Below are positions 17,804 to 34,327 of a DNA stretch of 64,000 bases, in pieces; the stretch's first letter is position 1; every line of letters starts with the position of its first letter. The stretch is from Streptosporangium brasiliense (lineage in GTDB: Bacteria; Actinomycetota; Actinomycetes; Streptosporangiales; Streptosporangiaceae). The stretch is from assembly GCF_030811595.1 (NCBI RefSeq), contig NZ_JAUSRB010000002.1:3038001-3102000 (forward strand), read 5' to 3'. Below the pieces are notes generated by a model, which worked only from the letters and a program-made list of their open reading frames with translations, did no database searches and was not told the DNA's origin. The translations under genes were made by a program, and so were the position numbers.

Positions 17804-18460
<657 letters not shown>

Positions 18461-18462
18461 CC

Positions 18463-21400
18463 TCATCGCCGCTCCCCGGTCACGATGGAGACCGCGACCG
18501 GCTCCTGCACGCCCCTGACCCGGACCACCGCCGAGGCGATCAGGTCGGAGCCGGCCCGCAGCAGCAGCCAGCCGTCCTCATGACCTCCCACGACGGTGAG
18601 CGGCGCCGACGGCGGGCGGTCCGCCCGGGTCAGGCACTGGACGGCCGTCCAGATCCGGGTGGTCACGGTCTCCTCGGGCTCGTCGCAGCACAGCCGTAAC
18701 TCGTCGATCAGCGGGGCGAACGCCGGCCCCAGGGTCCCGCTCGCCCCGCCCACCCGCTCCCAGGCACAGTGGGCCGGGGCGTCCACGCCGAGCACGAGAT
18801 CGCCCAGCCGGCTGCGGGAGGCCCCGCCGTCCATGGTCACGTGGAGCGCCGGATCGAGGCCGAGGGCGATCGCGGCCCGTTGCAGGTAGACGGCCAGCAG
18901 GTTCGGCGGCCACGGGTCACGCCGGGGGATCGGGCCGACGTCCTTCAGCCGCAGCCCGGTCCACGCCGCCACCAGCCGCCCGCGCACGTCGGTGGCGGTG
19001 ACGTCCCAGACGTACTCGCCCCCGTCGTGGTGGCGCTCGGTGGCGTGCAGCCGGACGTCCCCCTGGGACGGGCGGACCACCAGCCGCTCGCCGCCGACCG
19101 GCAGCAGCCGCCGGTGCGGCACGCACGCCTGCAGCGCGTGGATCGTGGCATCGCTCAGCCCCGGGCTGCCCAGCACCGGCCTGCCCTCGAACCAGCCGTC
19201 CGGGCCGTCGCCCTGCAGCTCGCCCCGGCACCCCCGCGCCTCGACGAGGGTGAGCTCCCTGACCCGCTGGAACCGGCCGGTGTGGAAGCACAGCGCGCCG
19301 TACAGCTCCCCGGCGTCCAGCGGCTCGGTGCCGTCCCGGTTCAGCTGTGGCACGGCGAGCGTCTCGTCGGCCGGGTCCACCGGGAACACGGCCCTGAAGT
19401 GGTCGACGTGGAATCCCGTCTCCTCGCTGCGGACCACCACCTCGACGCTCTGCCCGTGCCGGAGCGCGCACACCCGGATCGTGGTGCCGCCCTCGTCGGG
19501 CACGACCACCGGCCGGTCGAACGTCATCTGCCCGGCCTCGTCCAGCGGCCGCCCCGCCAGCACCCCCGCGGCCTGCGCCATCGCCTCCAGCGCCACCACC
19601 GCGGGCAGCACCGCCAGCCCGTCGATCCGGTGGTCGTCCAGGTAGGCGTCGCTCTTGAGCGACAGGCGGCTGTCGGCGACCAGCTCCACCCCGGGGACGT
19701 GCACGCGCACCTCGTCGAGGAAGCGGCCCCCTCCCTGGCAGGGGGCCGCGGGCCCGTCCAGCCTGCCGTGGACGGCCACGCCGGACGGCAGGTCCCCGCT
19801 CGTGAGCAGCGTGAGGAACAGCTCCGTCCCCTCCCGCGGCGTGAGAACCGTCGCGTCCGCGCCGCCCGGGGACCCGGCCGGCCCCGGTCCGGAGCCGTCG
19901 ACGGCCCACGCCGGCCAGTCGACGTGCAGCCCGCCGATCCTCCCGACCCGGTCGCGCACCAGCCCGCAGGCCAGCGCCCGGCAACTCTCGCCCGCCATGC
20001 CGTACCGGCCGGCCACCGATCCGAACGTCACGACGTGCCGGGGCGCGGCCGCGGCGAGCAGGTTGTCCAGGCCGGTCAGCTCGGAGGTGACGTGCCGCGC
20101 GAAGTCCTCGGCCGTGAGGTCGGCGAACCGGCCCGGCCGGCCGCCGCGCGTCGAGTGGATCACCATGGTGACCGGCCCCAGCGTGCTCTCCAGCTCCCGT
20201 ACGGCGTGCCCCACCTCCTCGGCGTCACCGAGGTCCGCCGCCGCGTAGCCGTGCCGGATCCCCCTGGCGGCAAGCTTCTCCGGATCTCCGGCCGCCACCG
20301 CTCCGGGGTCCGGCCGCTCCCGCCCGAGCAGGGCCAGCGCGCACCCGCTCGCCTCGGCCAGCGCCACGGCACAGGCGGACCCGATCCCCTCGTCGTCCCC
20401 GCTGACCAGCACCACGTCCGCGGGGCCCACCGGGAGCGGTCCCTGCCCGTCGAGGGCGAGTGGCATCCTGCCGCCCGGGTGCCCGGTGCCCAGGTCGAGG
20501 CCGGGATGCTCCAGCCGCAGCGACGCCAGGAACCCGGACAGGGCGTCGCCCTCGCAGACCACGGTCAGCCCCTCGAGGCCCGCGATCGCCTCATGGACCG
20601 CCGTGACCAGGGTCTCGACCGCCCCGGGCCGGAGCGGGTCGCCGATCACGACCCGCCTGCCCGGACTGTTCCGGGCCTCCGTCCGCGGCCGGGTGCCGGG
20701 ACGTCCCTTCCCGGTCGTGGGAGCGGCCCCGGCCACCGCGGGACCGGCCCCGGTCGCCACGGGGGCGGCCCGGCCGCCGGCCTCCGGATCCTCGGCGAAG
20801 CACCTCACCCAGCGCGCCACCCCGGCCACCGGCCCGGCGCCGGCCCGCTCCCGGGGCGCCTCCGCGCGGGTCTCCTGCCCGGCGCCGCCGTGCCGGACGG
20901 GCGCGCACGGGCCGGCGACGAAGACGCGGTCGCGCCAGATGTCGACGGGGCGGGCCGGGAGGTCACCGTAGAGGGCGGTGAGGTCCGGGACCATCATGGC
21001 CGCCCAGAGAGCGGCGGCGGTCTCGGCCGAGGGGACCCCGGCGGGGCAGGACCCGGCGGGGAGGGAGGGGGCGGTACCGGCGTCCGGACCCGGCCCGGGA
21101 TAGATCCCCGGCAGGGCGGCCGGCAGGCCGGACCCCGAGGCGTCCAGCCACTCCAGGGCGGTGCCGGCCCGCTCGGCGAGCTGTTCGGCCGACCCCGCCA
21201 CGATCGCGATCCGCGACGGCCCGGCGGGGGCGGTCCCCAGCGCGTGCGCGAGGTCGCACAGCTCCGCCTCCGACCACCGCGCCGCCTGGTCCGCGACACG
21301 CTCCAGCACCGGCCGCACGGCCCCGGCGTCCTCGCCCGAGAAGGCGAACACCACCGGCTCCTCCCACGAGGGCCCGTCGATCGCCCGCCGGGGCCGGACG

Positions 21401-22950
21401 TCCCCCGCTCCGGCGGGGAGGGGATCCGCGCCGGCCGGGCCGGGCGCGGTGAGGACGAGGTGGACGTTGACGCCGCCGGAGCCCATGGCGCTCACCCCCG
21501 CGTGGCGGGGTCCGGCGGGCCACGGCTCGGGGGCGGTCAGGGCACGCAGGGGCGCGCCGGGGACGGTCAGGAGGGGGTGCGGGGACCGGCAGCCGGTGGT
21601 CGGGGGGAGCACGCCGGAGGCGATGCTCAGGGTGGCCTTGATCAGCCCCGCGACCCCGGCCGCCGCCTTGGTGTGCCCGATGTTGGCGCCGACGGACCCG
21701 ATCGCCGCCCGCCGCGCGGTCCCGTTCACTGTCTCCTCCGCGAGGCCGGTCCCGTTCACCGCCTCCTTCGCAGACCCGCTCCTGTTCACCGCCTCCGGAG
21801 CGGGACCTGCGCCGGGCGCCGCCCGCCGTACGGGGTCAGGCTCGGGGACCGCCTGCCGCGCGGCGTCGGAGAGGAGGCGGGTGAGCGCGGTGAGCTCGGC
21901 GGTGTCGGCGGCGGCCGTGCCGGTGCCGCTGCCCTCGAACAGGGCGACCGCGGCGGGGGAGACCTCCGCCCGCGCGTAGGCGCGGCGCAGCGCCAGGAGC
22001 CGGCCGTCGGCCTCCGGGCGGGAGAGGTCGCCCCCGCCGTCGCAGGACACGCCCCAGCCGGCGATCTCCGCGTAGATCCGGGACCCGGCGGCACGGGCGT
22101 CGGCCGTACGCGCCAGGGCGACGATCCCGCAGCCCTCGCCCGGCCAGAAACCGTCCGACCGGACGTCGTAGACCCGCATCCGCTCACCGGCCAGCACGCC
22201 CGCCTTGGCCAGGCCGACCAGCTCGAACGGGTCGAGGCTGAGGTCCACGCCGCCGGCCAGGGCGAAGTCCGCGCTCCCGTCCAGCAGCGAACGGCACGCG
22301 GTGACCACCGCGAGCAGGGACGAGGCGCCGGCGCCGTCCACCGCGTATCCGCCGCCGCGCAGGCCGAAGTGGTCGCAGATGCGCGTGGCGATCGTGCCGG
22401 GCAGGCTCCCGGCCAGGCTCTCGTCGGAGATCTCGGGGAAGGGCCGCAGATACCCGGTCTCCGCCTGGGCCAGCAACCGGGCGGCCGTCTCCTGGGGGAG
22501 CTCGGCCAGGGCCGAGGCCAGCACGCGCCGCACGTACGGCCAGCGCAGCCGGAGGGCGGCGGCCCGGGAGACCTCGCCGGTCAGGGTGTTGCCGACGACC
22601 ACCGTGACCCGGTCCCGGTCGAGCCCCTCCCCGCCGGGGACCCCCGCGTCCGCCAGGGCGCGGGAGGCGGTGTCCAGGGCCAGCCAGTGGGCCGGGTCGG
22701 TGACCCGGTGGACCGCCTCGGGGACGCCGAAGGCGGCCCGGTCGAACTCCCAGCCCTCGATCAGGGCGGCGCGGGTGCTGTGGGTGCGGTCGGGGGCCGA
22801 CCGGTCGGGGGAGTGGTAGTCGGTCAGGTCCAGCCGCTCGACGGGCAGGCGGCGGAAGGCCCGCCGCTGCCACAGCACCGTCTCCCACAGCGCCAGCGGA
22901 TCGGGCGCGTCCGGATAGGTGCAGGCCAACCCCACGATCGCGACGGACAT
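18463..22950 (-). CDS. Degenerate enediyne-PKS-like (PKSE-like) synthase: KS0-linker-KR0-DH, no AT or ACP
   Basis: 1495 residues; ATG 22950 (MSVAIVGLACTYPDAPDP) has GGAGAGG 8 bases upstream. Residues ~1-470 are a ketosynthase fold closest to PKSE by LAGGVDLSLDPFELVGLAKAG. The active-site Cys is Gly208 (VDGAGASSL; codon GGC at 22327-22329), the first His is Ser341 (EGSGTGT), and His426 (NIGHTKAAAG) remains. A ~50-residue repetitive insert (EAVN units, ~365-415) splits the KS. The pre-AT and post-AT linkers survive but no AT core (GHSxGE) or ACP (DSL) motif is visible. A KR-like domain (~845-1000) has Arg where the catalytic Tyr should be. A hot-dog DH domain keeps His1107 in HRIDGLAVLP. The end recalls a phosphopantetheinyl transferase with its W-x-x-K-E motif changed (RIWTAVQCL). 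Condensation looks impossible. Confidence 0.8.
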   Translation of the reverse strand: MSVAIVGLACTYPDAPDPLALWETVLWQRRAFRRLPVERLDLTDYHSPDRSAPDRTHSTRAALIEGWEFDRAAFGVPEAVHRVTDPAHWLALDTASRALADAGVPGGEGLDRDRVTVVVGNTLTGEVSRAAALRLRWPYVRRVLASALAELPQETAARLLAQAETGYLRPFPEISDESLAGSLPGTIATRICDHFGLRGGGYAVDGAGASSLLAVVTACRSLLDGSADFALAGGVDLSLDPFELVGLAKAGVLAGERMRVYDVRSDGFWPGEGCGIVALARTADARAAGSRIYAEIAGWGVSCDGGGDLSRPEADGRLLALRRAYARAEVSPAAVALFEGSGTGTAAADTAELTALTRLLSDAARQAVPEPDPVRRAAPGAGPAPEAVNRSGSAKEAVNGTGLAEETVNGTARRAAIGSVGANIGHTKAAAGVAGLIKATLSIASGVLPPTTGCRSPHPLLTVPGAPLRALTAPEPWPAGPRHAGVSAMGSGGVNVHLVLTAPGPAGADPLPAGAGDVRPRRAIDGPSWEEPVVFAFSGEDAGAVRPVLERVADQAARWSEAELCDLAHALGTAPAGPSRIAIVAGSAEQLAERAGTALEWLDASGSGLPAALPGIYPGPGPDAGTAPSLPAGSCPAGVPSAETAAALWAAMMVPDLTALYGDLPARPVDIWRDRVFVAGPCAPVRHGGAGQETRAEAPRERAGAGPVAGVARWVRCFAEDPEAGGRAAPVATGAGPAVAGAAPTTGKGRPGTRPRTEARNSPGRRVVIGDPLRPGAVETLVTAVHEAIAGLEGLTVVCEGDALSGFLASLRLEHPGLDLGTGHPGGRMPLALDGQGPLPVGPADVVLVSGDDEGIGSACAVALAEASGCALALLGRERPDPGAVAAGDPEKLAARGIRHGYAAADLGDAEEVGHAVRELESTLGPVTMVIHSTRGGRPGRFADLTAEDFARHVTSELTGLDNLLAAAAPRHVVTFGSVAGRYGMAGESCRALACGLVRDRVGRIGGLHVDWPAWAVDGSGPGPAGSPGGADATVLTPREGTELFLTLLTSGDLPSGVAVHGRLDGPAAPCQGGGRFLDEVRVHVPGVELVADSRLSLKSDAYLDDHRIDGLAVLPAVVALEAMAQAAGVLAGRPLDEAGQMTFDRPVVVPDEGGTTIRVCALRHGQSVEVVVRSEETGFHVDHFRAVFPVDPADETLAVPQLNRDGTEPLDAGELYGALCFHTGRFQRVRELTLVEARGCRGELQGDGPDGWFEGRPVLGSPGLSDATIHALQACVPHRRLLPVGGERLVVRPSQGDVRLHATERHHDGGEYVWDVTATDVRGRLVAAWTGLRLKDVGPIPRRDPWPPNLLAVYLQRAAIALGLDPALHVTMDGGASRSRLGDLVLGVDAPAHCAWERVGGASGTLGPAFAPLIDELRLCCDEPEETVTTRIWTAVQCLTRADRPPSAPLTVVGGHEDGWLLLRAGSDLIASAVVRVRGVQEPVAVSIVTGERR

Positions 22951-22979
22951 TCGGCACACCTCTCCGGTGTTCACATGGA

Positions 22980-23918
22980 TCATGGCTGGACGCCCGCCGG
23001 GACCTCGGGCAGGTCCCGCGCGCCGGCGGGGACGGGGACGGTGAGCGGGCGGACGCGGGCGAGCAGGGCCAGGCCCGCCCCCCGGCCGGCGCAGACGATC
23101 AAAAGGGCGGACAGCAGCCCGAACACGACGTGGAGCTGGACCAGCAGGCCGTAGACCGCCGCCGCGGCCAGGCCGAACCAGACCTGGTTACGGGGCCTCG
23201 CCGGAGTCGTGTCCAGGTCGGTGACCAGGTAGGTGGTGTAGAGGACGAACGCCGCACCGGTCATCGGCAGCAGGGCGCCGAGCGGCGGGAGGCCGGCCGC
23301 CGCGCCCCGGACGAGCCCCTGCAGGGCGGACCCGACCGCCCAGCCCAGGGCCAGCGGCAGCCTCCCGGCCAGCCCGGCGTTCGCCGCGCCCAGCGCCAGC
23401 AGGGCCAGCGGCACGAGCGCGTCGAACGGCCCCGACACCCATTCGGTGAACTGGTACGGCGGCGCGGCGCCGACCCACGGCATCAGCAGCAGCACGGCGG
23501 CGGCGCCGGAGCACGGCGGGTTCAGGTAGTGCCTGCCGGGCGTGCCCGCCGCCGTGCCGGGCACCCTGACCCGCAGGACGTAGGTGCTGCCGACGCCGAT
23601 GAGGACGGCCAGCGCGACCGGCGCCGGGTGCGCGCTGCCGGACAGCAGCATCGCGCACGTCAGCCCGGTGATGTAGGAGGGCAGCAGGAAGCCGGCCACC
23701 CGGCCGGGCCCCGCCCCGCGGTACCGCGCCCGGCGCCGCCACGCCCACGCCTCCACGGTCTCCAGCGCGAACTCGGCGGTCACCCCGGTGACCGCGCCCA
23801 CGATCGGCGCCAGATAGGCCTGCTCGAAGCCGAGCACGGTGTGCCCCAGCACCGTCACCAGGGTGATGGACCCGGCGAAATACCGGAGCGCCCTGTCGCG
23901 TTCCCGGGCGGTGGTCAT
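22980..23918 (-). CDS. UnbU-like integral membrane protein (enediyne-cluster-associated)
   Basis: 312 residues with about eight hydrophobic segments in an RnfD/NqrB-like layout (SITLVTVLGHTVLGFEQAYL, GLTCAMLLSG, GRHYLNPPCSGAAAVLLLMP). ATG 23918 is 2 bases past the UnbV stop, and the frame ends 30 bases before the PKSE-like start. UnbU, UnbV and UnbL form a trio found beside PKSE genes in enediyne clusters; no biochemical role is established to my knowledge. The identification rests on membrane layout plus the neighbouring UnbV and DUF1702 genes. Confidence 0.75.
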   Translation of the reverse strand: MTTARERDRALRYFAGSITLVTVLGHTVLGFEQAYLAPIVGAVTGVTAEFALETVEAWAWRRRARYRGAGPGRVAGFLLPSYITGLTCAMLLSGSAHPAPVALAVLIGVGSTYVLRVRVPGTAAGTPGRHYLNPPCSGAAAVLLLMPWVGAAPPYQFTEWVSGPFDALVPLALLALGAANAGLAGRLPLALGWAVGSALQGLVRGAAAGLPPLGALLPMTGAAFVLYTTYLVTDLDTTPARPRNQVWFGLAAAAVYGLLVQLHVVFGLLSALLIVCAGRGAGLALLARVRPLTVPVPAGARDLPEVPAGVQP

Positions 23919-23920
23919 GA

Positions 23921-26107
23921 TCAGTCCATCTCCCGGGCGCGGCCGTCGGCCAGCAGGAGCCGGTGCCAGCCGGGCCGTACGGACACCGACGCGGCGTGGA
24001 GGACGCCGCAGGCGTCGCGCCAGGACAGCTCGACCGGGTACGGGCCGTCCGGCGCGCCGTCGCCCAGGCCGAACAGCAGCTCCGGCGCGGAGACGCCGTT
24101 GTGCCCGTTGGCCGGGTAGAGCTGCCGGCTCAGCGTCCTCCCGCCGGGCAGGCGCACCGTGGCGGTGGCTCCGACGGCCGGACGCGTCCGGACCCGGCCG
24201 GGCGCGGCGGAGCGGGACCGGACGGCGCCTGACGCGGCCGGGCCGACGAGCGCGGGGAGCGTCAGCCGCGGCCGCTCCAGCGGCGGGCCGGTCGGGAGAG
24301 GGCTGATGAGCGCCGAGAGCGCCGCGACGGGGTGGGGTGAGAGGGGGCCGGTGAGCCCGGGGGCGGAGCGGGACGGGAGGGGGCTGATGAGCGCGGAGAG
24401 CGCCGTTGCCGGGCCGGTTGAGGTGAGAGGCGCCGGGAGGGGGCGGGCCTGGGCCGGGAAGGGATGGGCCTGGGCGGGGGCCGTGGCGCAGGGACCGGCG
24501 GGAAGACGTGGGCGCAGGCCCACGAACGGCGCGGTGGCGCCGTCGTTGCGGTAGAGCGCCGAGGCGGCCCACTGGTTGGCGACCGCGAAGTCCAGCCGCC
24601 CGTCGTCGTCGACGTCACCGACGGCGAAGGACCGGCTGACCGTGTCCCCGCCGACCCCGGCCCGCCGGGCCACGTCCACGTAGCGGCCGTCGGCGCCCCG
24701 GGCGAAGAAGCTGTTGGTGTCGCGGCCCGACAGGTCGTCCCCGGCCCCGAGGCGCGGCCACAGCGCCGGCTCCCGCAGGAACAGGTCGTTGGACATCGCC
24801 GCCTCCTGCAGCTGCGCCCACCGGCTGACCTCCCCCCGGACCGCCCCGGTCGCGTGCATGATCTCGTCGGTGCCGTCGTTGTCGAAGTCGGCGGCCTTGA
24901 CGTCCCAGGACCAGCCGGTACGGCCCAGCCCCAGCTCCTCGCCGCGGTCGTCGTAGGGCGCGTGGCCCCCGTGGAGCCCGCCCGGCCGGGAGACGAAGGC
25001 GAAGTTGCTCTCGTGCAGCGCGTAGTCCTCGGTGAGGTTGCTGACCAGGATGTCCGGTGTGCCGTCGGCGTTGAGATCGGTGAAGCCGACCCCCATGCCC
25101 TTGAAGGAGTCCTGGCCGACCACGCGGGACTTGGGCGTGGCCAGGTGCCGGGTGCCGCGCGCCTCCCGGAAGCTGATCCTGCCGGGCGCGGACTCGTTGA
25201 CCAGCAGCTCGTCCGGGCCGAAGTCGTTGGCCACGTACAGCTCGGGCAGCCCGTCGCCGTCCAGGTCCTGGGCGCCCAGCGCGAGCGTCCACCCCCTGCC
25301 CCCGGACTCGCCGAACACCCCTTCGGCCTCGGCGAACCGGGCGGGCCCCGTCGCCCGGTAGAGCCGGTCGGCACCCCCGTCCCCGGCGTCGGACAGCGAG
25401 CCGGGCAGCACGATGTCGCCGTGGTCGCCGGTGTCGTCCAGCACCCTGGCGCCGTCCGGGAAGTAGTTGCCGAAGACCAGGTCGAGGCGGCCGTCGCCGT
25501 CGAAGTCACCGGCCGTGGCGGCGCTGGTGTTCCAGACCTCCGGCCGCGGGGTCAGGTCCCGGTGGCGGAAGGCCGCCCCGGACGGCGGGACCCCGGGCAC
25601 GCGCAGGAACAGCGAGGGGGAGCGGCCCCAGTAGTAGACGACCAGGTCCTGCCAGCCGTCCTGGTCGAGGTCGGCCGGCAGGCACCCCGTCGGCGCCTCG
25701 TACGGCATCCGCCCCGGCGCGGACAGCGTGAACGGCCGGTAGCGCCGGGGCGTCCCCGGCGCGGGGCTCACGGTCACCGTGTCATGACGCGGGTCGACCA
25801 GGCACACGTCGTCGGAGACGACCGCGTTGTCGACGTCGAACAGCGCGACCCCCGCGCCCGTCGAGGAGACCCAGGCCCGGAGGTTCCGGTAGCCCGGCGC
25901 GACCGGCCGGAGGCTCCGGTCGCCCGGCCGGTCGGCCGGGCCGAGGCGGCTGGCGGCGAAGGAGAAGCCCGCGGCGGCCTCCACCGTGGAGGCGCGCGGG
26001 GGGCCGGTCAGCAGCCAGCCGGCGGCGCAGGCCGTCAGGGCCAGCGCCCCCGCCGCGCACCTGCGGATCCCCGGCACCGCTTTCACGACTCCCCGAGCTG
26101 TGGTCAT
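23921..26107 (-). CDS. UnbV-like FG-GAP repeat protein (CRTAC1/ASPIC-UnbV family)
   Basis: 728 residues. A signal peptide or anchor (residues ~10-32, CAAGALALTACAAGWLLTG) precedes about six FG-GAP beta-propeller repeats with calcium-type loops: DLDQDGWQDLVV, DFDGDGRLDLVFG, DLDGDGLPELYVA, DLNADGTPDILVS, DFDNDGTDEIMHA, DVDDDGRLDFAVA. The C-terminus has the ASPIC/UnbV domain (ATVRLPGGRTLSRQL...LLFGLGD). Between them sits an unusual ~85-residue Pro/Ser-rich insert containing ALSALISPLP twice. ATG 26107 overlaps the UnbL stop (ATGA). It is probably extracytoplasmic. Confidence 0.88.
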   Translation of the reverse strand: MTTARGVVKAVPGIRRCAAGALALTACAAGWLLTGPPRASTVEAAAGFSFAASRLGPADRPGDRSLRPVAPGYRNLRAWVSSTGAGVALFDVDNAVVSDDVCLVDPRHDTVTVSPAPGTPRRYRPFTLSAPGRMPYEAPTGCLPADLDQDGWQDLVVYYWGRSPSLFLRVPGVPPSGAAFRHRDLTPRPEVWNTSAATAGDFDGDGRLDLVFGNYFPDGARVLDDTGDHGDIVLPGSLSDAGDGGADRLYRATGPARFAEAEGVFGESGGRGWTLALGAQDLDGDGLPELYVANDFGPDELLVNESAPGRISFREARGTRHLATPKSRVVGQDSFKGMGVGFTDLNADGTPDILVSNLTEDYALHESNFAFVSRPGGLHGGHAPYDDRGEELGLGRTGWSWDVKAADFDNDGTDEIMHATGAVRGEVSRWAQLQEAAMSNDLFLREPALWPRLGAGDDLSGRDTNSFFARGADGRYVDVARRAGVGGDTVSRSFAVGDVDDDGRLDFAVANQWAASALYRNDGATAPFVGLRPRLPAGPCATAPAQAHPFPAQARPLPAPLTSTGPATALSALISPLPSRSAPGLTGPLSPHPVAALSALISPLPTGPPLERPRLTLPALVGPAASGAVRSRSAAPGRVRTRPAVGATATVRLPGGRTLSRQLYPANGHNGVSAPELLFGLGDGAPDGPYPVELSWRDACGVLHAASVSVRPGWHRLLLADGRAREMD

Positions 26108-27615
26108 GAGTCGCGGTTGCGCCGCGCCCAGGTCTTCCTGATCCCCGCCCGCCAAGCCTGGTAGTGGTCGCCGCTGTGCGCGTTGTGCCCCAGGGCGATG
26201 AGCGCGGTGTCGGTCCAGCCGGCGGCCTCGTCGACGTCCGCCCCGCACAGCGCGGGCGCGGCGGCGGCCGTGTGCTCGGGCACGGTCCCGGAGATCAGCC
26301 TTGCGGCGCAGGCGGAGGCGCTGCCCTGGACGAGGTGGGCGCGGAAGCCGTCCTCGGCCGCCGCCGCGCCCAGCCGTTCCAGCTCGGCGGCGCCCGCCCC
26401 GCCGGTGTACGTGGCGGCCATGCCCACACCGCTCCACAGGTCGGCGCGGCGGCCCGGAGGGAATTCGGCGATGCGGAGGATGACGTCGTCCACGCCCGCG
26501 CACTCGTGGAACCAGAGCATCCGGCCCAGTCCCTGATCGAAGATCGCCCGGCGCGTCCGGTCCATCAGGCCGGCCGTACGCTGCCGCCCGACCGTCCGGT
26601 CGGTGGCGAAGAAGCCCTGGTGGAAACCGAAGCCGTCGAAGGCCAGCCAGCGCAGCAGCGGGTGGACCGAGCGGATGCCCCACATCGGCCGCATGCGCAG
26701 CCGGGCGTACGCCCAGCCGGTGCCCAGGTGGATCATGTGCGGATGGCGCATGCCGGGCCCGTTGAGCAGGCCCCTCAGCCGTCGGCCGCCGGTGCCCGTC
26801 AGCACGTCCAGGGTCGCGCAGGCCGCTCCCGCGCCCCCGTAGGCGTATCCGCGCAGCTCGTCGTGGATGTCGTCGATCCGCTCGACCTCACCGGCGATCA
26901 CCGCGTTGTAGCCCGTCAGGAACGACCGGCCCGAGTTCTCCAGCCGCTCGCGGGCCGGTCCCAGCCGGAACCGGCGCGGCCCGGAGTCGGCCCGGGCGAG
27001 GTCCTGCCAGAGCAGGCTCGTCAGGCCACGTGGTCTGGTCAGCTCCAGCTCCGCCGGGTCCATGAGGGTGGGGGCGTCCGGAGCCGACGGGCCCGGAGCG
27101 GCCGGGGAGGCCGGGAGCGGAGTGCCCGGGGAAGGGGTGGCCCGGGCAGAGGCGACCGGAGTCGAGGTGGCCGGAGTCGAGGTGGCCGGGGACGCAGGGA
27201 GTGGGGTGCCCGGGGAAGGGGCGGCCGAGGCTGATGCTGCCGGGGCGACCGGGAGTGGGACGACCGGGAGCGGGGCGGTCGGCGTGTCCAGGGATGGGAC
27301 GGCCGGGGCGGTCGGCGTGTCCAGGGATGGGACGGCGGGGGCGGCCGGAGACGTGGAGGCCGGGGAGGCGGGAGACGCGGAGGCCGGGGAGGCCGGCTCC
27401 GGCACGTCGCCGGACGGCGCCTCCGGATCGGGGGCCGCGCCGGAGGGATCGGAGGCCGCGCCGGAGAACCACCCCTCCTCGGGGGCCTCCCCGGTGCCGG
27501 GGACCTGGGCCACGTCGGGGGCCTTCGCCGCGGAGACCTCCTCGGCTCCGTCACTCTGAGCTGTTGTCCGGGTGCCCTCCGCATTGCTCACAGGCCCGAA
27601 CGTAGTAAGCCGCAT
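26104..27615 (-). CDS. UnbL-like DUF1702 protein with a long repetitive N-terminus
   Basis: 503 residues. Residues ~190-503 match the DUF1702/UnbL layout (RFRLGPARERLENSGRSFLTGYN, MIHLGTGWAYARLRMRP, AFDGFGFHQGFF, GLGRMLWFHECAGV, ALGHNAHSGDHYQAWR). The first ~185 residues are a Pro/Ala/Ser/Thr low-complexity tail with repeats such as VPSLDTPTAP (twice) and SPGTPLPASP (twice), far longer than DUF1702 needs. ATG 27615 (MRLTTFGPV) with GAAGGG 4 bases upstream is preferred to TTG 27627. It is the first gene of the UnbL-UnbV-UnbU-PKSE-like operon. Confidence 0.8.
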   Translation of the reverse strand: MRLTTFGPVSNAEGTRTTAQSDGAEEVSAAKAPDVAQVPGTGEAPEEGWFSGAASDPSGAAPDPEAPSGDVPEPASPASASPASPASTSPAAPAVPSLDTPTAPAVPSLDTPTAPLPVVPLPVAPAASASAAPSPGTPLPASPATSTPATSTPVASARATPSPGTPLPASPAAPGPSAPDAPTLMDPAELELTRPRGLTSLLWQDLARADSGPRRFRLGPARERLENSGRSFLTGYNAVIAGEVERIDDIHDELRGYAYGGAGAACATLDVLTGTGGRRLRGLLNGPGMRHPHMIHLGTGWAYARLRMRPMWGIRSVHPLLRWLAFDGFGFHQGFFATDRTVGRQRTAGLMDRTRRAIFDQGLGRMLWFHECAGVDDVILRIAEFPPGRRADLWSGVGMAATYTGGAGAAELERLGAAAAEDGFRAHLVQGSASACAARLISGTVPEHTAAAAPALCGADVDEAAGWTDTALIALGHNAHSGDHYQAWRAGIRKTWARRNRDS

Positions 27616-27761
27616 TCGGCCCTTCAAGCACCGCGTTTCGGGTTCCGGGCAAAGAAAGCGTTAGATCCCGGGTGGTCCCGTCAGGCCCGCGGGCCCGTCG
27701 ACGGGATCACGGACACGGGTCACCGGCTCCGGGTCCGCGCGGGGAAACAGACCCGGGCCCG

Positions 27762-27908
27762 TGAGCGGCACGGGCTCGCTCCGGAGTGTCACGTCCGTGC
27801 GGGGCGCGGACTCAGGTCCCGTAGGTGCCACAGGGCCAAGTCCTGAGCGGCACGGGCTCGGTCCGGAATGTCATGGCCCGCGCCCGTGCGGGGCACGGGC
27901 TCAGGTCC
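27762..27908. repeat. Imperfect tandem duplication upstream of unbL
   Basis: A segment starting TGAGCGGCACGGGCTCG and ending CTCAGGTCC occurs at 27762-27819 and again at 27844-27908, the second copy with about 7 extra bases. The second copy ends over the stop codon of the terpenoid-cyclase-fold gene. The 285-base gap otherwise holds only the presumed UnbL promoter. Confidence 0.65.
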
Positions 27909-28953
27909 GCGAGGGGGCGTGGCTGCAGCCGCAGGCCGCCGTGGGGCGGTCGGTCACGTGACTGCCCGCGTCCCGGAAGATGCCCGCGGCGGGGGTGTGC
28001 CCGGTCAGCGCGTCGGAGGCCAGCACCACGGCGGCCGCGGTGTAGGCGGAGCGCTCGTGCGGGAAGTGCTTGCCGTTCACGAACTGCCAGCCGGTCCAGT
28101 AGGAGCCGTCCTCGTGCCGGAGGTGCTGCATGTCGGCGAAGAGCTTCAGCGCCCGGTCCCGCTCGCCCAGGGCGTCCAGGGCGAGCACCAGCTCGCATGA
28201 CTCGGCGCCGGTCACCCACGGCTGGTCGGAGACGCAGCGGATGCCGAGGCCCGGCTCCACGAACGTGTCCCACTCCTCGGCCAGCCGTGCCTGGGCGGCC
28301 GGGCCGCGGAGCGCGCCGCCGAGGATCGGGTAGTACCAGTCCATCGAGAAGCGGCTCTTGTCGGCGAACGCCTCAGGATGGGCGGCGAGCACGTGGCCGA
28401 GCTGGTCGGCCGCGAGCTCCCAGTCGGGCTGCGGATCGCCCAGCCGCTCACCCAGCAGCACGCCGCTGCGGAGCCCCTGGTAAACGGAGGAGCAGCCGGT
28501 CAGCAGGGCGTAGCGGGCAGGCGTGCCGTCGGCCGCCCGCTCCCAGACGATCTCACCCCGGGTGGTCTGCAGTTCGACCACGAAGTCCAGCGCCGCCCGG
28601 ACGACCGGCCACATCTCGCGGGCGAATCCGTCGTCCCCGGTGACCAGCAGCTCATGCCAGACGCCGACCGCGACATATGCGGCGTGGTTGGACTCCCCGC
28701 CCTGCTCGACCGCCCTGCCGCCGACCAGCTTCATCGGCCAGGAGCCGTCGGCCCGCTGCGTGCGGACCAGCCAGTCGTAACCCTTGCGGGCCGGTCCGGA
28801 GAGCCCCGCCACGCTCATCGCCATCAGGCATTCGACGTGGTTCCAGGCGTCCACGTGTCCCTCGGGCCACGGGATGCCGCCGTCGGCCTCCTGCACGTCC
28901 GCGATGCTCTGAGCGGTCTGGACGACCTGCTCCCACTCCAACCGGTCGCTCAC
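27901..28953 (-). CDS. Prenyltransferase/squalene-oxidase-repeat (alpha-alpha toroid) protein
   Basis: 350 residues with QW-like repeats of the terpenoid cyclase/protein prenyltransferase toroid: DVQEADGGIPWPEGHVDAWN, GYDWLVRTQRADGSWPMKL, MQHLRHEDGSYWTGWQF. It lacks an obvious DxDD or DCTAE cyclase motif. The C-terminus is unusual (TAACGCSHAPSRT). GTG 28953 has a GGGGAG only 2 bases upstream, so the start is moderately sure. It follows a methyltransferase and GT4 gene on the same strand and may act on a polyprenyl-linked or surface glycolipid substrate, which is inference. Confidence 0.78.
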   Translation of the reverse strand: MSDRLEWEQVVQTAQSIADVQEADGGIPWPEGHVDAWNHVECLMAMSVAGLSGPARKGYDWLVRTQRADGSWPMKLVGGRAVEQGGESNHAAYVAVGVWHELLVTGDDGFAREMWPVVRAALDFVVELQTTRGEIVWERAADGTPARYALLTGCSSVYQGLRSGVLLGERLGDPQPDWELAADQLGHVLAAHPEAFADKSRFSMDWYYPILGGALRGPAAQARLAEEWDTFVEPGLGIRCVSDQPWVTGAESCELVLALDALGERDRALKLFADMQHLRHEDGSYWTGWQFVNGKHFPHERSAYTAAAVVLASDALTGHTPAAGIFRDAGSHVTDRPTAACGCSHAPSRT

Positions 28954-29032: not shown

Positions 29033-29746
29033 TCATGCGGGTTTCCGCACGTAGAGCACCACGCTCTTGCCGATGAGCGGGTTGAGCAGCGCCTCGGCGA
29101 TCCTGGTCGCGGCCGGGCGCTTCATGATGTCCCAGACCAGGATCTCGTGGTAGGCCTTGGCCAGCGGGTGGTCGTCGTTGTTGACGCCGACCGCGCACTT
29201 GATCCACCAGTACGGCGCGTGCAGGCCGTGGGCGTGGTGGTGCGGGCCGATCTCCATGCCGATCGACTTCAGCTTGGCGCTCAGCTCGGCCAGCGTGTAG
29301 ATGCGGACGTGCCCGCCGGGGGCGGTGTGGTAGGCCTCGTCCAGCGCCCAGCAGATCCGCTCCGGCAGGAAGCTCGGCACGGTGATGGCCGCCCGGCCGC
29401 CCGGCTTGAGCACCCGGAAGATCTCCCGCATCGCGGCCATGTCGTCGGGGATGTGCTCCAGCACCTCGGCCGCGATCACCCGGTCGAAGCTGGCGTCCTC
29501 GAACGGCATCTTGAGCGCGTCGCCGGTCACGGTCTCGGCCGTCGCGCCCGCGGGCACCTCGCCGGCCTTGTCCATCGCGGCGAACATGCTCGCCACGCCC
29601 TCCAGCTCCTCGGCGTCCATGTCGAAGGCCACGACGTCGGCGCCCCGGCGCAGCACCTCGAACGCATGCCGTCCGCCGCCGCAGCCCAGGTCCAGAACTC
29701 GGGTTCCGGGCCCCACGGGCAACCGGCCGAAGTCGACAGTCAGCAC
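29033..29746 (-). CDS. Class I SAM-dependent methyltransferase (UbiE/Methyltransf_11 type)
   Basis: 237 residues. SAM motif I is RVLDLGCGGGRHAFEVLRRG, motif II VVAFDMDAEELEGV, and ASFDRVIAAEVLEHI with LKPGGRAAITVPSF completes the fold. A C-terminal extension includes HHHAHGLHAPYWWIKCAVG. GTG 29746 has GAGGAG about 8 bases upstream. It sits between a GT4 glycosyltransferase and a terpenoid-cyclase-fold protein with short gaps (46 and 79 bases), so an operon is likely. Confidence 0.88.
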   Translation of the reverse strand: MLTVDFGRLPVGPGTRVLDLGCGGGRHAFEVLRRGADVVAFDMDAEELEGVASMFAAMDKAGEVPAGATAETVTGDALKMPFEDASFDRVIAAEVLEHIPDDMAAMREIFRVLKPGGRAAITVPSFLPERICWALDEAYHTAPGGHVRIYTLAELSAKLKSIGMEIGPHHHAHGLHAPYWWIKCAVGVNNDDHPLAKAYHEILVWDIMKRPAATRIAEALLNPLIGKSVVLYVRKPA

Positions 29747-29792: not shown

Positions 29793-31037
29793 TCACTTCG
29801 CCCGGCGGGCCTGGATGGCCTCGTGGTAGGCCTCCACGGTCCGCTGGGCGACGACGTTCCAGGTGTAGCGCTCCATGACCCGCTCGTAGCCCTTCCTGCC
29901 CACCGCGGCCCGCTCCTCCGGGGAGTCGTGCAGCCGGCGCAGGACGGCGGCCAGCTCCTCGGGGTCGCCGGGGGCCACCTGGACGGCCGCGTCGCCGACC
30001 ACCTCGGGCAGCGCGCCGGTACGGCTGGCGACCAGCGGGGTGCCGCAGGCCATGTGCTCGACGGCCGGCAGCGAGAAGCCCTCGTAGAGCGAGGGCACGA
30101 CCGAGATCTCGGAGGTGGCGATCAGCTCGCCCAGCTCGGTGTCGGAGATGCCGTGCACGAACCGGACCCGGTCGTGCAGGGAGAGCTCGGCGACCAGCTT
30201 CTCGGTCGGGCCGCCGGGGGTGGGCTTGCTGACCACGGTCAGGTTGACGTCGCGCTCGGTGGCGAGCTTCGCCACCGCGCGCAGCAGCGTCGCCACGCCC
30301 TTCATCGGGGAGTCGGCGCTGGCCACCGCGACGATCGAGCCGGGCCGCTTGGGCATCTCGGGGCGCGGGTGGAAGTAGCGGGTGTCCACGCCGAGCGGGA
30401 TGAGCCGCATGTTGGCCTGGGGCACGTTGAAGTCGCGGTGGATGTCGGCGAGGGAGGACTCGCTGACGGTCAGGATCGGGTTCAGCCGGGGAGCGACCTT
30501 GGCCTGCATCCGCACGAAGCCGTACCACCGTCTGAGCGAGAGCTTCTTGCGCAGCGGCGCGGCCTTCAGCTCGATCCGGCGGTCCACGCTGATCGGGTGG
30601 TGGATGGTGCCGACCACGGGGAACAGCTTCTGGATGCCGAGCAGGCCGTAGCCGAGCGTCTGGTTGTCCTGCACGACGTCGAAGTCGCCGACGCGCTTGC
30701 TCAGCTCGCGGCGCGCCCGGAGAGTGAAGGTCAGCGGCTCGGGGAACCCGGCGGTCCACATGGTCGCGACCTCTAGACAGTCGATCCAGTCGCGGTACTC
30801 ACCCAGCTTGGGGGTGCGGAAGGGGTCCTCGTCGCGGTAGAGGTCCAGGCTGGGGACCTTGTTGAGGATGACGCCCTCGTCGAGCTCCGGGTACGGCTGG
30901 CCGGAGAAGACCTCGACGTGGTGCCCGAGGGCGACCAGTTCCCGGCTGAGGTGACGCAGGTAGACGCCCTGGCCGCCGCAGGTCGGCTTGCTGCGGTAGG
31001 ACAGCAGCGCGACCCGCAGTGAGTCCGCACCTGGCAC
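29793..31037 (-). CDS. GT4-family glycosyltransferase
   Basis: About 414 residues in two Rossmann-like halves: SLRVALLSYRSKPTCGGQGV at the start (glycine-rich acceptor loop), and in the donor half VPSLYEGFSLPAVEHMACG and PLVASRTGALPEVVGDAAV, containing the family E-x7-E pair. GTG 31037 is chosen because AAGGGG lies 5 bases upstream and the protein begins at the first beta strand; the open frame extends to 31163. It is the first gene of the operon with the methyltransferase and toroid protein, and divergent from GDP-mannose 4,6-dehydratase, so the donor may be a GDP-deoxyhexose (inference). Confidence 0.88.
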   Translation of the reverse strand: MPGADSLRVALLSYRSKPTCGGQGVYLRHLSRELVALGHHVEVFSGQPYPELDEGVILNKVPSLDLYRDEDPFRTPKLGEYRDWIDCLEVATMWTAGFPEPLTFTLRARRELSKRVGDFDVVQDNQTLGYGLLGIQKLFPVVGTIHHPISVDRRIELKAAPLRKKLSLRRWYGFVRMQAKVAPRLNPILTVSESSLADIHRDFNVPQANMRLIPLGVDTRYFHPRPEMPKRPGSIVAVASADSPMKGVATLLRAVAKLATERDVNLTVVSKPTPGGPTEKLVAELSLHDRVRFVHGISDTELGELIATSEISVVPSLYEGFSLPAVEHMACGTPLVASRTGALPEVVGDAAVQVAPGDPEELAAVLRRLHDSPEERAAVGRKGYERVMERYTWNVVAQRTVEAYHEAIQARRAK

Positions 31038-31139
31038 GGCAACCCCTTCCTCACCCTGTCCGGAAGGGGACAGGTACCGTGAAAGATGACCTTCGTAGTC
31101 GGACCCTACCATTCGGGAGCTCTCTTGGACCGGAGGTGT

Positions 31140-31158
31140 AATTGTTCCCAGAACAATT
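31140..31158. promoter_or_regulatory. Perfect inverted repeat in the gt4/gmd divergent region
   Basis: AATTGTTC-CCA-GAACAATT is a perfect 8-bp inverted repeat with a 3-base centre, about 100 bases upstream of the GT4 start. It is AT-rich in a GC-rich genome and is a plausible repressor or activator site. Confidence 0.5.
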
Positions 31159-31205
31159 CGCACAGGGCCCGAACTGCGGAGTTAGGCTGACCGAGTATGA
31201 TTCGG

Positions 31206-33112: not shown

Positions 33113-34327
33113 ATGACGCGCCGCGCGCACATCGCCATGGTCAGCATCCCCGCCCCGGGTCATGTGAACCCCGGCATCGAGGTGATCAGGGAGCTGGTGG
33201 CGCGGGGGCACCGGGTGACCTACGCCAACGACCCGTCCTTCGCCGAGGTGATCGAGGCGGCCGGGGCCGAGCTCGTGCCGTACGGCTCGACCCTGCCGAT
33301 GGGCGACACCGCGACCTGGCCCGAGGACACGATCGCCCAGCTCGACGTCTTCCTCGACGACGCGATCTCCATGCTGCCGCAGCTCCGTGACGCCTACGGC
33401 GACGACCGGCCCGACCTGTTCCTCTACGACATCGGCGGCTACTCGGCGCGGATCCTCGCCGAGAACTGGGGCATCCCGGCGATGCAGCTCTCGCCGACCT
33501 ACGTGGCCTGGGAAGGCTACAAGGAGGACACGGCGCCGATGATCGAGGAGCTGAAGAAGGCCCCCGGCGGAGCCGAGCACTACCGGCGGTTCGACCGGTG
33601 GCTGGCCGACAACGGCATCACCGGCACCGACTCCCAGGCGTTCGTCGGCTCTCCGGAGCGGGCGCTCGCGCTCATCCCACGGGTCATGCAGCCCAACGCC
33701 GACCGGGTCGACCCAGCGCGGATCACCTTCACCGGGCCGTGCTTCGGTGAGCGCTCCCACCAGGAGGCGTGGAAGCGGCCGGACGGCGCCGGAAAGGTGC
33801 TGCTGGTCTCCCTCGGCTCGGCCTTCACCGACCTGCCCGATTTCTACCGCTCCTGCCTGGCCGCCTTCGGCGACCTGCCCGGCTGGCACGTCGTGCTCCA
33901 GATCGGCAGGTTCGTCGACCCGGCCGAGCTCGGCGAGATCCCCGCCAACGTGGAGGTGCACCGCTGGGTGTCCCAACTGTCGATCCTGGAGCAGGCCGAC
34001 GCGTTCGTCACCCACGCGGGCATGGGCGGCACCCAGGAGGGCCTGTACTGCGGCGTCCCGATGATCGCCGTCCCGCAGGCCACCGACCAGTTCGACAACG
34101 CGGACAAGATCGTCGAGCTCGGTGTCGGCCGGCGGATCGACACCGCGCAGGCGACGCCCGAGGCGCTGCGCGCCGCCCTGCTGGAGCTCACCTCCGACCC
34201 GGAGGTCGCGCTGCGGTTGGAGAAGATCCGCGCCGAGGTCCGGGCCGAGGGCGGCACCACCCGCGCGGCCGACCTCATCGAGGAACTGCTGGAGACCACC
34301 GCGCCGTCGCGGACCTCCGACGGGTGA
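33113..34327 (+). CDS. Macrolide-type glycosyltransferase (MGT/OleD family, GT1)
   Basis: 404 residues. The N-terminal acceptor domain begins HIAMVSIPAPGHVNPGIEVIRELV; the C-terminal nucleotide-sugar domain carries HAGMGGTQEGLYCGVPMIAVPQATDQFDNA, the MGT signature. Relatives glucosylate macrolides and other hydrophobic compounds, often for self-protection or detoxification. GAGGAG precedes ATG 33113. It appears monocistronic, controlled by a palindrome overlapping its promoter; no TetR gene is adjacent. A biosynthetic rather than detoxifying role cannot be excluded. Confidence 0.9.
   Translation: MTRRAHIAMVSIPAPGHVNPGIEVIRELVARGHRVTYANDPSFAEVIEAAGAELVPYGSTLPMGDTATWPEDTIAQLDVFLDDAISMLPQLRDAYGDDRPDLFLYDIGGYSARILAENWGIPAMQLSPTYVAWEGYKEDTAPMIEELKKAPGGAEHYRRFDRWLADNGITGTDSQAFVGSPERALALIPRVMQPNADRVDPARITFTGPCFGERSHQEAWKRPDGAGKVLLVSLGSAFTDLPDFYRSCLAAFGDLPGWHVVLQIGRFVDPAELGEIPANVEVHRWVSQLSILEQADAFVTHAGMGGTQEGLYCGVPMIAVPQATDQFDNADKIVELGVGRRIDTAQATPEALRAALLELTSDPEVALRLEKIRAEVRAEGGTTRAADLIEELLETTAPSRTSDG

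Follow-up and report, generated by a model that had tools for sequence, protein, structure and literature searches.

Enediynes are DNA-damaging antibiotics. Their published polyketide synthase (PKS) cassette comprises, according to an excerpt of PMC5181780, the genes E3, E4, E5, E and E10. The second described system relevant here is the cluster for methylmannose polysaccharide (MMP) of nontuberculous mycobacteria, which is given as four genes (meT1, mmpH, pmeT3 and manT) in an excerpt of PMC9883506, where MMP is also proposed to sequester newly made fatty-acyl-CoA and is linked to cold adaptation. The locus analysed here lies in a 64,000-nucleotide stretch of the 10.49-Mb genome of Streptosporangium brasiliense (C2:3,038,001-3,102,000; the window), where positions 18463-27615 of the minus strand carry four genes, UnbL, UnbV, UnbU and a gene resembling the enediyne PKS (PKSE), within an MMP cluster. 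From its evolution and the selection acting on it, we consider it likely that this four-gene set is what is left of a vertically inherited, minimal enediyne PKS cassette. UnbL, UnbV and UnbU are presumably E3–E5, i.e., three of the five cassette genes, and an earlier sequence-only reading of the window, which had reported E3–E5 type genes as absent, would be mistaken on this point. The synthase domains are abbreviated as KS (ketosynthase), AT (acyltransferase), ACP (acyl carrier protein), KR (ketoreductase), DH (dehydratase), PPTase (phosphopantetheinyl transferase) and TE (thioesterase). The four genes are:

26104..27591, minus strand: UnbL (DUF1702, PF08012), GTG start, with a variable Pro/Ala-rich N-terminal part and a conserved helical domain
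23921..26107, minus strand: UnbV, with FG-GAP repeats and an ASPIC/UnbV domain (Pfam) and, by eye, an N-terminal hydrophobic segment
22980..23918, minus strand: UnbU, a polytopic membrane protein with a predicted RnfD/NqrB fold
18463..22950, minus strand: PKSE-derived protein, KS-KR-DH-PPTase-like, lacking AT and ACP; a longer form could start at 22983

The DUF1702 match of UnbL (E 3.3e-74), the FG-GAP and UnbV_ASPIC matches of UnbV, and the KS, KR and PKS-DH matches of the 1506-residue PKSE-like open reading frame (ORF) are from Pfam, which gives no match for UnbU and no AT or ACP match in the PKSE-like ORF. A DUF1702 protein together with UnbV and UnbU, as required of an enediyne PKS cassette, is accordingly present in the window. 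UnbU is 41% identical to the UnbU of a second enediyne cluster in the same genome. The four coupled minus-strand genes of the sequence-only reading are borne out, the genes being real and mostly under selection. The overlaps it described hold for UnbL and UnbV (ATGA); UnbV and UnbU are 2 nt apart, and UnbU overlaps the PKS gene only if the longer PKS start is used. Position 22950 (MSVAIVG) is the most likely PKS start, because in three relatives a stop lies shortly before it. In this region an open frame says little by itself, since the GC content of the locus DNA is 75–79% and a 1461-residue antisense ORF covers the same DNA (18769-23154, plus strand), a typical chance ORF of GC-rich DNA.

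The synthase has the following parts, all on the minus strand:

21241..22947, minus strand: KS domain with Gly in place of the active-site Cys (VDGAGASS) and Ser in place of the His of EGHGTGT; His of NIGHTK kept (Pfam, alignment)
20449..21186, minus strand: linker where AT and ACP are missing, limits approximate (alignment with intact homologues)
19966..20412, minus strand: KR domain whose catalytic motif has lost Tyr and Asn (SHYALAN changed to SCRALAC; Pfam, alignment)
18934..19692, minus strand: DH domain, catalytic His kept, the most conserved part of the synthase (Pfam, alignment, dN/dS)
18475..18798, minus strand: C-terminal segment, which we take to be PPTase-like, with changes in the conserved W..E..K motif (alignment)

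Aligned to intact PKSEs, the window KS has VDGAGASS for VDGACASS and EGSGTGT for EGHGTGT, and the region of AT and ACP is gone from the window synthase as well as from five KS-keeping relatives in Streptosporangium. The KS Cys is kept in three of these relatives (L046, L049 and L057) and lost in two (L056 and L059), where the KR Tyr stays. An enediyne PKS cassette requires a KS-AT-ACP-KR-DH synthase with its catalytic residues and a hot-dog thioesterase (E10). The window has no such synthase, and its best thioesterase match has an E-value of 0.17. Judged by its residues, the window synthase cannot work as a PKSE, because AT, ACP, the KS Cys, one KS His and the KR Tyr are missing; the earlier statement that it lacks AT and ACP and makes no enediyne by the known route is thus upheld by the domain and residue losses. 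The absence of a nearby thioesterase was likewise confirmed: neither the window nor the preceding 8 kb contains a thioesterase (best E 0.17) or MOSC-like gene (best E 0.43), the DNA beyond the other window end being unsearched.

The site at which the four genes lie is defined by the surrounding MMP genes:

17813..18460, plus strand: MeT1-like 1-O-methyltransferase of the MMP cluster, right flank (PDB 6g7d, E 3.9e-77)
27901..28953, minus strand: MmpH, methylmannose polysaccharide hydrolase, left flank (PDB 7qsj, E 6.1e-123)
29033..29746, minus strand: methyltransferase at the pMeT3 position (Pfam methyltransferase; assigned by position)
29793..31163, minus strand: ManT-like mannosyltransferase (PDB 7qsg, E 2.9e-141; entry title D-inositol 3-phosphate glycosyltransferase)

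We take 6g7d to be MeT1 and 7qsg to be ManT, so that homologues of MmpH, ManT and MeT1, whose co-occurrence marks an MMP cluster, stand together around the locus. Both flanks border it in 10 of 14 stretches from the same genus, and also in Planobispora longispora (G058), Nonomuraea deserti (G018) and Sinosporangium album (G019). Among the other four stretches, one (L055) ends at a contig end, and G002, G004 and Streptosporangium canum (G012) carry a later insert that places mmpH 13–19 kb from UnbL. Judged from translations, this insert is partly a sugar-catabolism cluster (L152, L153 and L154 in G002, S. canum and G004). MmpH and MeT1 are each present in 47 of 49 genomes searched, and the empty site is seen in 24 of the 47 genomes with both (table count), where the two matches are convergent and 0–330 bp apart. 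In five more distant genera the meT1/mmpH spacer consists of 3.6–4.2 kb of other DNA with no Unb or PKS match (ORFs viewed in three). Unrelated frames (1090 or 1175 residues, or transposase-like by eye) occupy the spacer in L142, L144 and L146, and this spot therefore appears to take insertions repeatedly. In Rhizohabitans arisaemae (L084) the cassette is complete and MmpH is inverted and about 7 kb away, so its site has been rearranged.

What the site contains varies from a complete cassette to a single gene. S. album has UnbL, UnbV, UnbU, a PKSE in a 2119-residue frame (KS-AT-ACP-KR-DH), a YbgC/FadM-type thioesterase and a MOSC-like gene; S. siamense has UnbL-UnbV-UnbU-PKSE at the MMP site with no TE match. 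The 16 Streptosporangium genomes divide into UnbL-UnbV-UnbU-PKS (4), UnbL-PKS (2), UnbL-UnbU-DH (1), UnbL-UnbV-UnbU (7), UnbU-DH without UnbL (1) and one locus cut by a contig end after UnbL and UnbV. UnbL stands alone beside MmpH in 6 Planobispora/Planomonospora loci and 32 Nonomuraea loci, none of these 38 having UnbV or UnbU, and MeT1 is next in 37 of them, the exception lying at a contig end. Three other genera (G023, G026 and G042) have only a KS-AT frame of 803–1187 residues at the site. In these frames (L133, L134 and L135) the AT Ser and, by eye, the KS Cys are lost and the sequence is well conserved. Against cassettes elsewhere, the 11 KS sequences from the site group together in a single clade (support 100/98), as do all five AT sequences (96/92), which fits one insertion followed by separate losses; in the flank tree the UnbL-UnbV-UnbU state without PKS appears at three places within Streptosporangium. 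The layout predicted to occur in relatives thus recurs, with all four genes in only 4 of 16 Streptosporangium genomes (one more being contig-cut), and the durable unit is UnbL.

Fifteen of the 16 Streptosporangium genomes and 53 of the 54 from Nonomuraea carry UnbL (one Nonomuraea copy with an internal stop), i.e., it is kept as if it were an ordinary cell gene in nearly all those examined. In all 53 Nonomuraea it adjoins MmpH on the same strand at less than 500 bp (two tables combined), and the Nonomuraea without UnbL has a clean empty site, with the MmpH and MeT1 matches 88 bp apart. UnbL is the sole DUF1702 match in 33 of the 53, and no UnbU was found in any of these 33, the search being positive in three of three control genomes (E 4e-116 to 4e-119). 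In the tree, lone UnbLs form two separate clades among cassette UnbLs. Lone and cassette UnbLs share 27 invariant residues, and no residue is fixed in lone UnbL that differs from one fixed in close cassettes. At its N-terminus, UnbL of Streptosporangium and Planobispora has a Pro/Ala-rich stretch that differs greatly in length (27042-27591 in the window) and that, by eye, is missing from most Nonomuraea and from the intact Sinosporangium cassettes.

The sequence-only reading placed the UnbL start at ATG 27615. GTG 27591 is most likely the start instead, because all 21 loci have it in frame with no intervening stop, only 8 of them have an equivalent of the ATG, and the GTG follows an upstream element at a distance of 6, 7 or 8 bases. 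In the window this element is:

27599..27627, minus strand: promoter-like element TTGAAG-N17-TACGTT with 7 bases between it and the GTG, a leaderless layout (conserved pattern)

The pattern TTGA[A/G]G-N16-18-TANNNT followed by GTG, which was written after viewing the upstream alignment, precedes UnbL in 20 of 21 Streptosporangium, Planobispora and Planomonospora loci; the remaining locus, L051, has TTGAAA in place of TTGA[A/G]G. It occurs once in the whole window with both strands scanned, where a generic promoter consensus scan gave no sites. Because the element is retained in the three species with the mmpH–UnbL insert, UnbL would be independent of mmpH read-through there. The UnbL fold is predicted with high confidence to be all-helical (pLDDT 92.5). 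Among the papers searched, none gives a function for UnbL or DUF1702; one mentions DUF1702, in a figure legend, and none mentions UnbL, UnbV or UnbU in connection with enediynes.

Selection was estimated as omega (dN/dS) by pairwise maximum likelihood within Streptosporangium. The values are 0.04–0.125 for UnbL (six pairs), 0.07–0.09 for DH with the C-terminus (five pairs), 0.10–0.20 for UnbV (four pairs), 0.16–0.32 for UnbU, 0.10–0.28 for KS and 0.11–0.30 for KR. The flanking genes give 0.03–0.07 (MeT1), 0.03–0.08 (zinc-dependent alcohol dehydrogenase, Zn-ADH) and 0.12–0.22 (PNPOx). An intact Sinosporangium pair has 0.059 for KS, 0.089 for KR and 0.085 for DH at dS 1.2–2.3. The AT/ACP deletion is common to the species compared, and the PKS values therefore describe evolution after it. 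In normalised counts for the window lineage, UnbL (0.49), UnbV (0.41), KS (0.38) and DH (0.36) look like the neighbouring genes MeT1 (0.20), PNPOx (0.41) and ADH (0.58), and KR and UnbU look nearly free. The KS-AT frames show dN 0.20–0.39 and omega 0.01–0.12, with dS mostly saturated. No stops occur inside the aligned coding parts of the compared relatives, and 62 of 70 indel runs have a length divisible by three (PKS 36/44, UnbV 12/12, UnbL 14/14), counts that are not independent because pairs share sequences. The dN/dS check that had been suggested thus gave values below one in Streptosporangium pairs, and together with the in-frame indels and the retention of UnbL this agrees with the earlier argument against simple decay.

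In the history that we propose, a cassette of UnbL-UnbV-UnbU-PKSE-TE with a MOSC-like gene would have entered the spacer between convergent meT1 and mmpH in an ancestor of several Streptosporangiaceae genera, by a single insertion if parsimony is a guide, and would have been passed on vertically since. In Streptosporangium, AT and ACP would then have been excised and TE lost, followed by loss of KS and KR residues that differed by species; polyketide making would have ended, and much of the remaining cassette would have been selected for other work. Domestication would concern UnbL, which is predicted to be all-helical, has a promoter-like element of its own, keeps the residues it shares with cassette UnbLs and persists without PKSE, UnbV or UnbU beside it. 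The PKS remnant would be a pseudoenzyme in which DH and the C-terminal part, and in the window also KS, remain constrained, perhaps binding acyl groups or partners. Repurposing, as the sequence-only reading put it, is compatible with part of the set being kept independently of the synthase; the envelope complex built on UnbU and UnbV is disfavoured by their repeated losses, by near-neutral UnbU in the window lineage and by the persistence of UnbL without UnbU. An optional membrane redox module is plausible where the two genes remain, because of the predicted RnfD/NqrB fold of UnbU and the N-terminal hydrophobic segment of UnbV. Only tentatively, and with less than an even chance in our estimation, we suggest that UnbL was domesticated as a core protein of acyl-chain or MMP metabolism in the Nonomuraea–Streptosporangium lineage, with dead PKSE fragments (KS-KR-DH; KS-AT) kept as binding pseudoenzymes. 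The PKSE product is presumably a polyene, and the likeliest task for UnbL, if still a doubtful one, would be to bind or process a host acyl chain that is long and hydrophobic, through an activity once directed at that polyene; such a chain, perhaps MMP-held, would be its present partner.

Several observations weigh against this account. The predicted UnbL fold has no match among solved structures, and an acyl-chain role is therefore without structural support. The persistence of UnbL beside the MMP genes may be plain vertical inheritance. No part of the cassette is kept everywhere: UnbL is absent from G001, which has UnbU and DH, the site of G110 is empty, the UnbL of G100 is interrupted by a stop, and G023, G026 and G042 keep KS-AT only. 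Lineage-specific normalised counts are near neutral for UnbU (0.90) and KR (1.41) in the window lineage and reach 1.05 for UnbU in L057 and 1.39 for KS in L049, and saturation affects several dS values. In the genome searches, a capped number of the first-look candidates was scored (44 for Nonomuraea UnbL, up to 66 for UnbU), so that the absences are strong and not absolute.

Other explanations account for part of the same data. An AT-less PKS still active in the window, with AT, ACP and TE acting in trans, could draw on the intact-looking PKSE elsewhere in the genome, but a trans-AT PKS requires a functional KS with an active-site Cys, and the window KS (VDGAGASS) has lost this residue together with one His, the KR Tyr is missing, and G002, G011 and G014 keep remnants without a second DUF1702 match; we regard such activity as barely conceivable. 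Slow decay alone, with a dead cluster losing parts at random in a stop-poor, GC-rich genome and having no present function, would agree with at least three PKS losses inside Streptosporangium, with catalytic residues lost differently by species, with near-neutral KR and UnbU in the window lineage and with the occurrence of long chance ORFs. It is nevertheless very unlikely in view of UnbL retention across Streptosporangium and Nonomuraea, DH omega values like that of the intact Sinosporangium pair, in-frame indels, and the conserved UnbL start and promoter-like element.

An orphan immunity function, in which UnbL, with UnbV and UnbU where present, protects against enediynes of neighbours or of the second cluster in the same genome, would explain retention after loss of the producer genes, and classical DUF1702 loci are common in the family, the window genome having an intact-looking cluster of its own. 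We consider it quite unlikely, since 33 of 53 UnbL-bearing Nonomuraea have no other DUF1702 match and UnbL lacks any fold match; to our knowledge no resistance role is known for UnbL. A role of UnbL within the MMP pathway, be it in synthesis, in acyl loading or in turnover of MMP, would account for its adjacency to and co-orientation with mmpH in 53 of 53 Nonomuraea, and MMP is proposed in the excerpt of PMC9883506 to sequester fatty-acyl-CoA. In chemical terms, fatty-acyl-CoA resembles a polyene acyl chain. Against this role, MmpH is present in 44 of 45 other genera of the family (one genome each), with UnbL seen at the site in three (G018, G019 and G058), and UnbL is still kept 13–19 kb from mmpH in G002, G004 and G012. 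We have seen no report of MMP in these genera, and PMC9883506 does not mention "Streptosporang" or "Nonomuraea". The MMP role is on balance rather unlikely, and descent of the locus from an enediyne PKS cassette, with UnbL as its most durable product, is the reading that we prefer.

The second enediyne locus of the same genome lies 1.2 Mb away and has an intact-looking PKSE of 1959 residues (motifs VDGACSSS, EGHGTGT and GHSLGE) directly followed by a thioesterase. This locus (L066/L067, C2:4,257,811-4,270,000) contains two tandem DUF1702 genes, UnbV, UnbU, PKSE and the thioesterase, after which flavin-reductase-like and then P450-like frames follow by eye. A tandem DUF1702 pair occurs in 15 of 100 genomes searched, and in another genus of the family four tandem DUF1702 genes lie downstream of a large KS-containing ORF (L068, G022:C13:109,499-113,343). 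Elsewhere in the window, 33113-34327 encodes an MGT-family glycosyltransferase that resembles macrolide-inactivating enzymes (NCBIfam NF033129 at 571.9 bits, below the cut-off of 700; TIGR01426 above cut-off).

The MMP site presents a graded series of cluster dismantling inside a conserved locus, from complete cassette to single gene, and with it several conserved forms of dead PKS. UnbL is kept without an adjoining cassette in dozens of species, in 33 of which no UnbU was found in the genome, and its activity can therefore be studied alone. For genome mining, a DUF1702 or UnbU/UnbV match in Streptosporangiaceae is no sure sign of an enediyne cluster.

Compared with the enediyne PKS cassette, the locus is alike in gene families and in the order and strand of UnbL-UnbV-UnbU-PKS, and the complete cassette of Sinosporangium album at the same site indicates the origin from which it would have come. 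It differs in lacking AT, ACP and TE, in its dead KS and KR, and in its position inside an MMP cluster, and in Nonomuraea, Planobispora and Planomonospora nothing but UnbL is left of the cassette. The mycobacterial MMP cluster, in the excerpt of PMC9883506, shares homologues of MeT1, MmpH and ManT with the genes flanking the locus, but is described there as four genes, whereas here it holds an inserted cassette or its remnants. With the RnfD/NqrB subunits of Rnf and Na+-NQR, UnbU shares the predicted fold. Pseudoenzymes derived from PKS and fatty acid synthases exist as a class. As in these, the sequence of the synthase remnant is constrained after loss of catalytic residues; here, several different truncations of one PKSE are found at one site.

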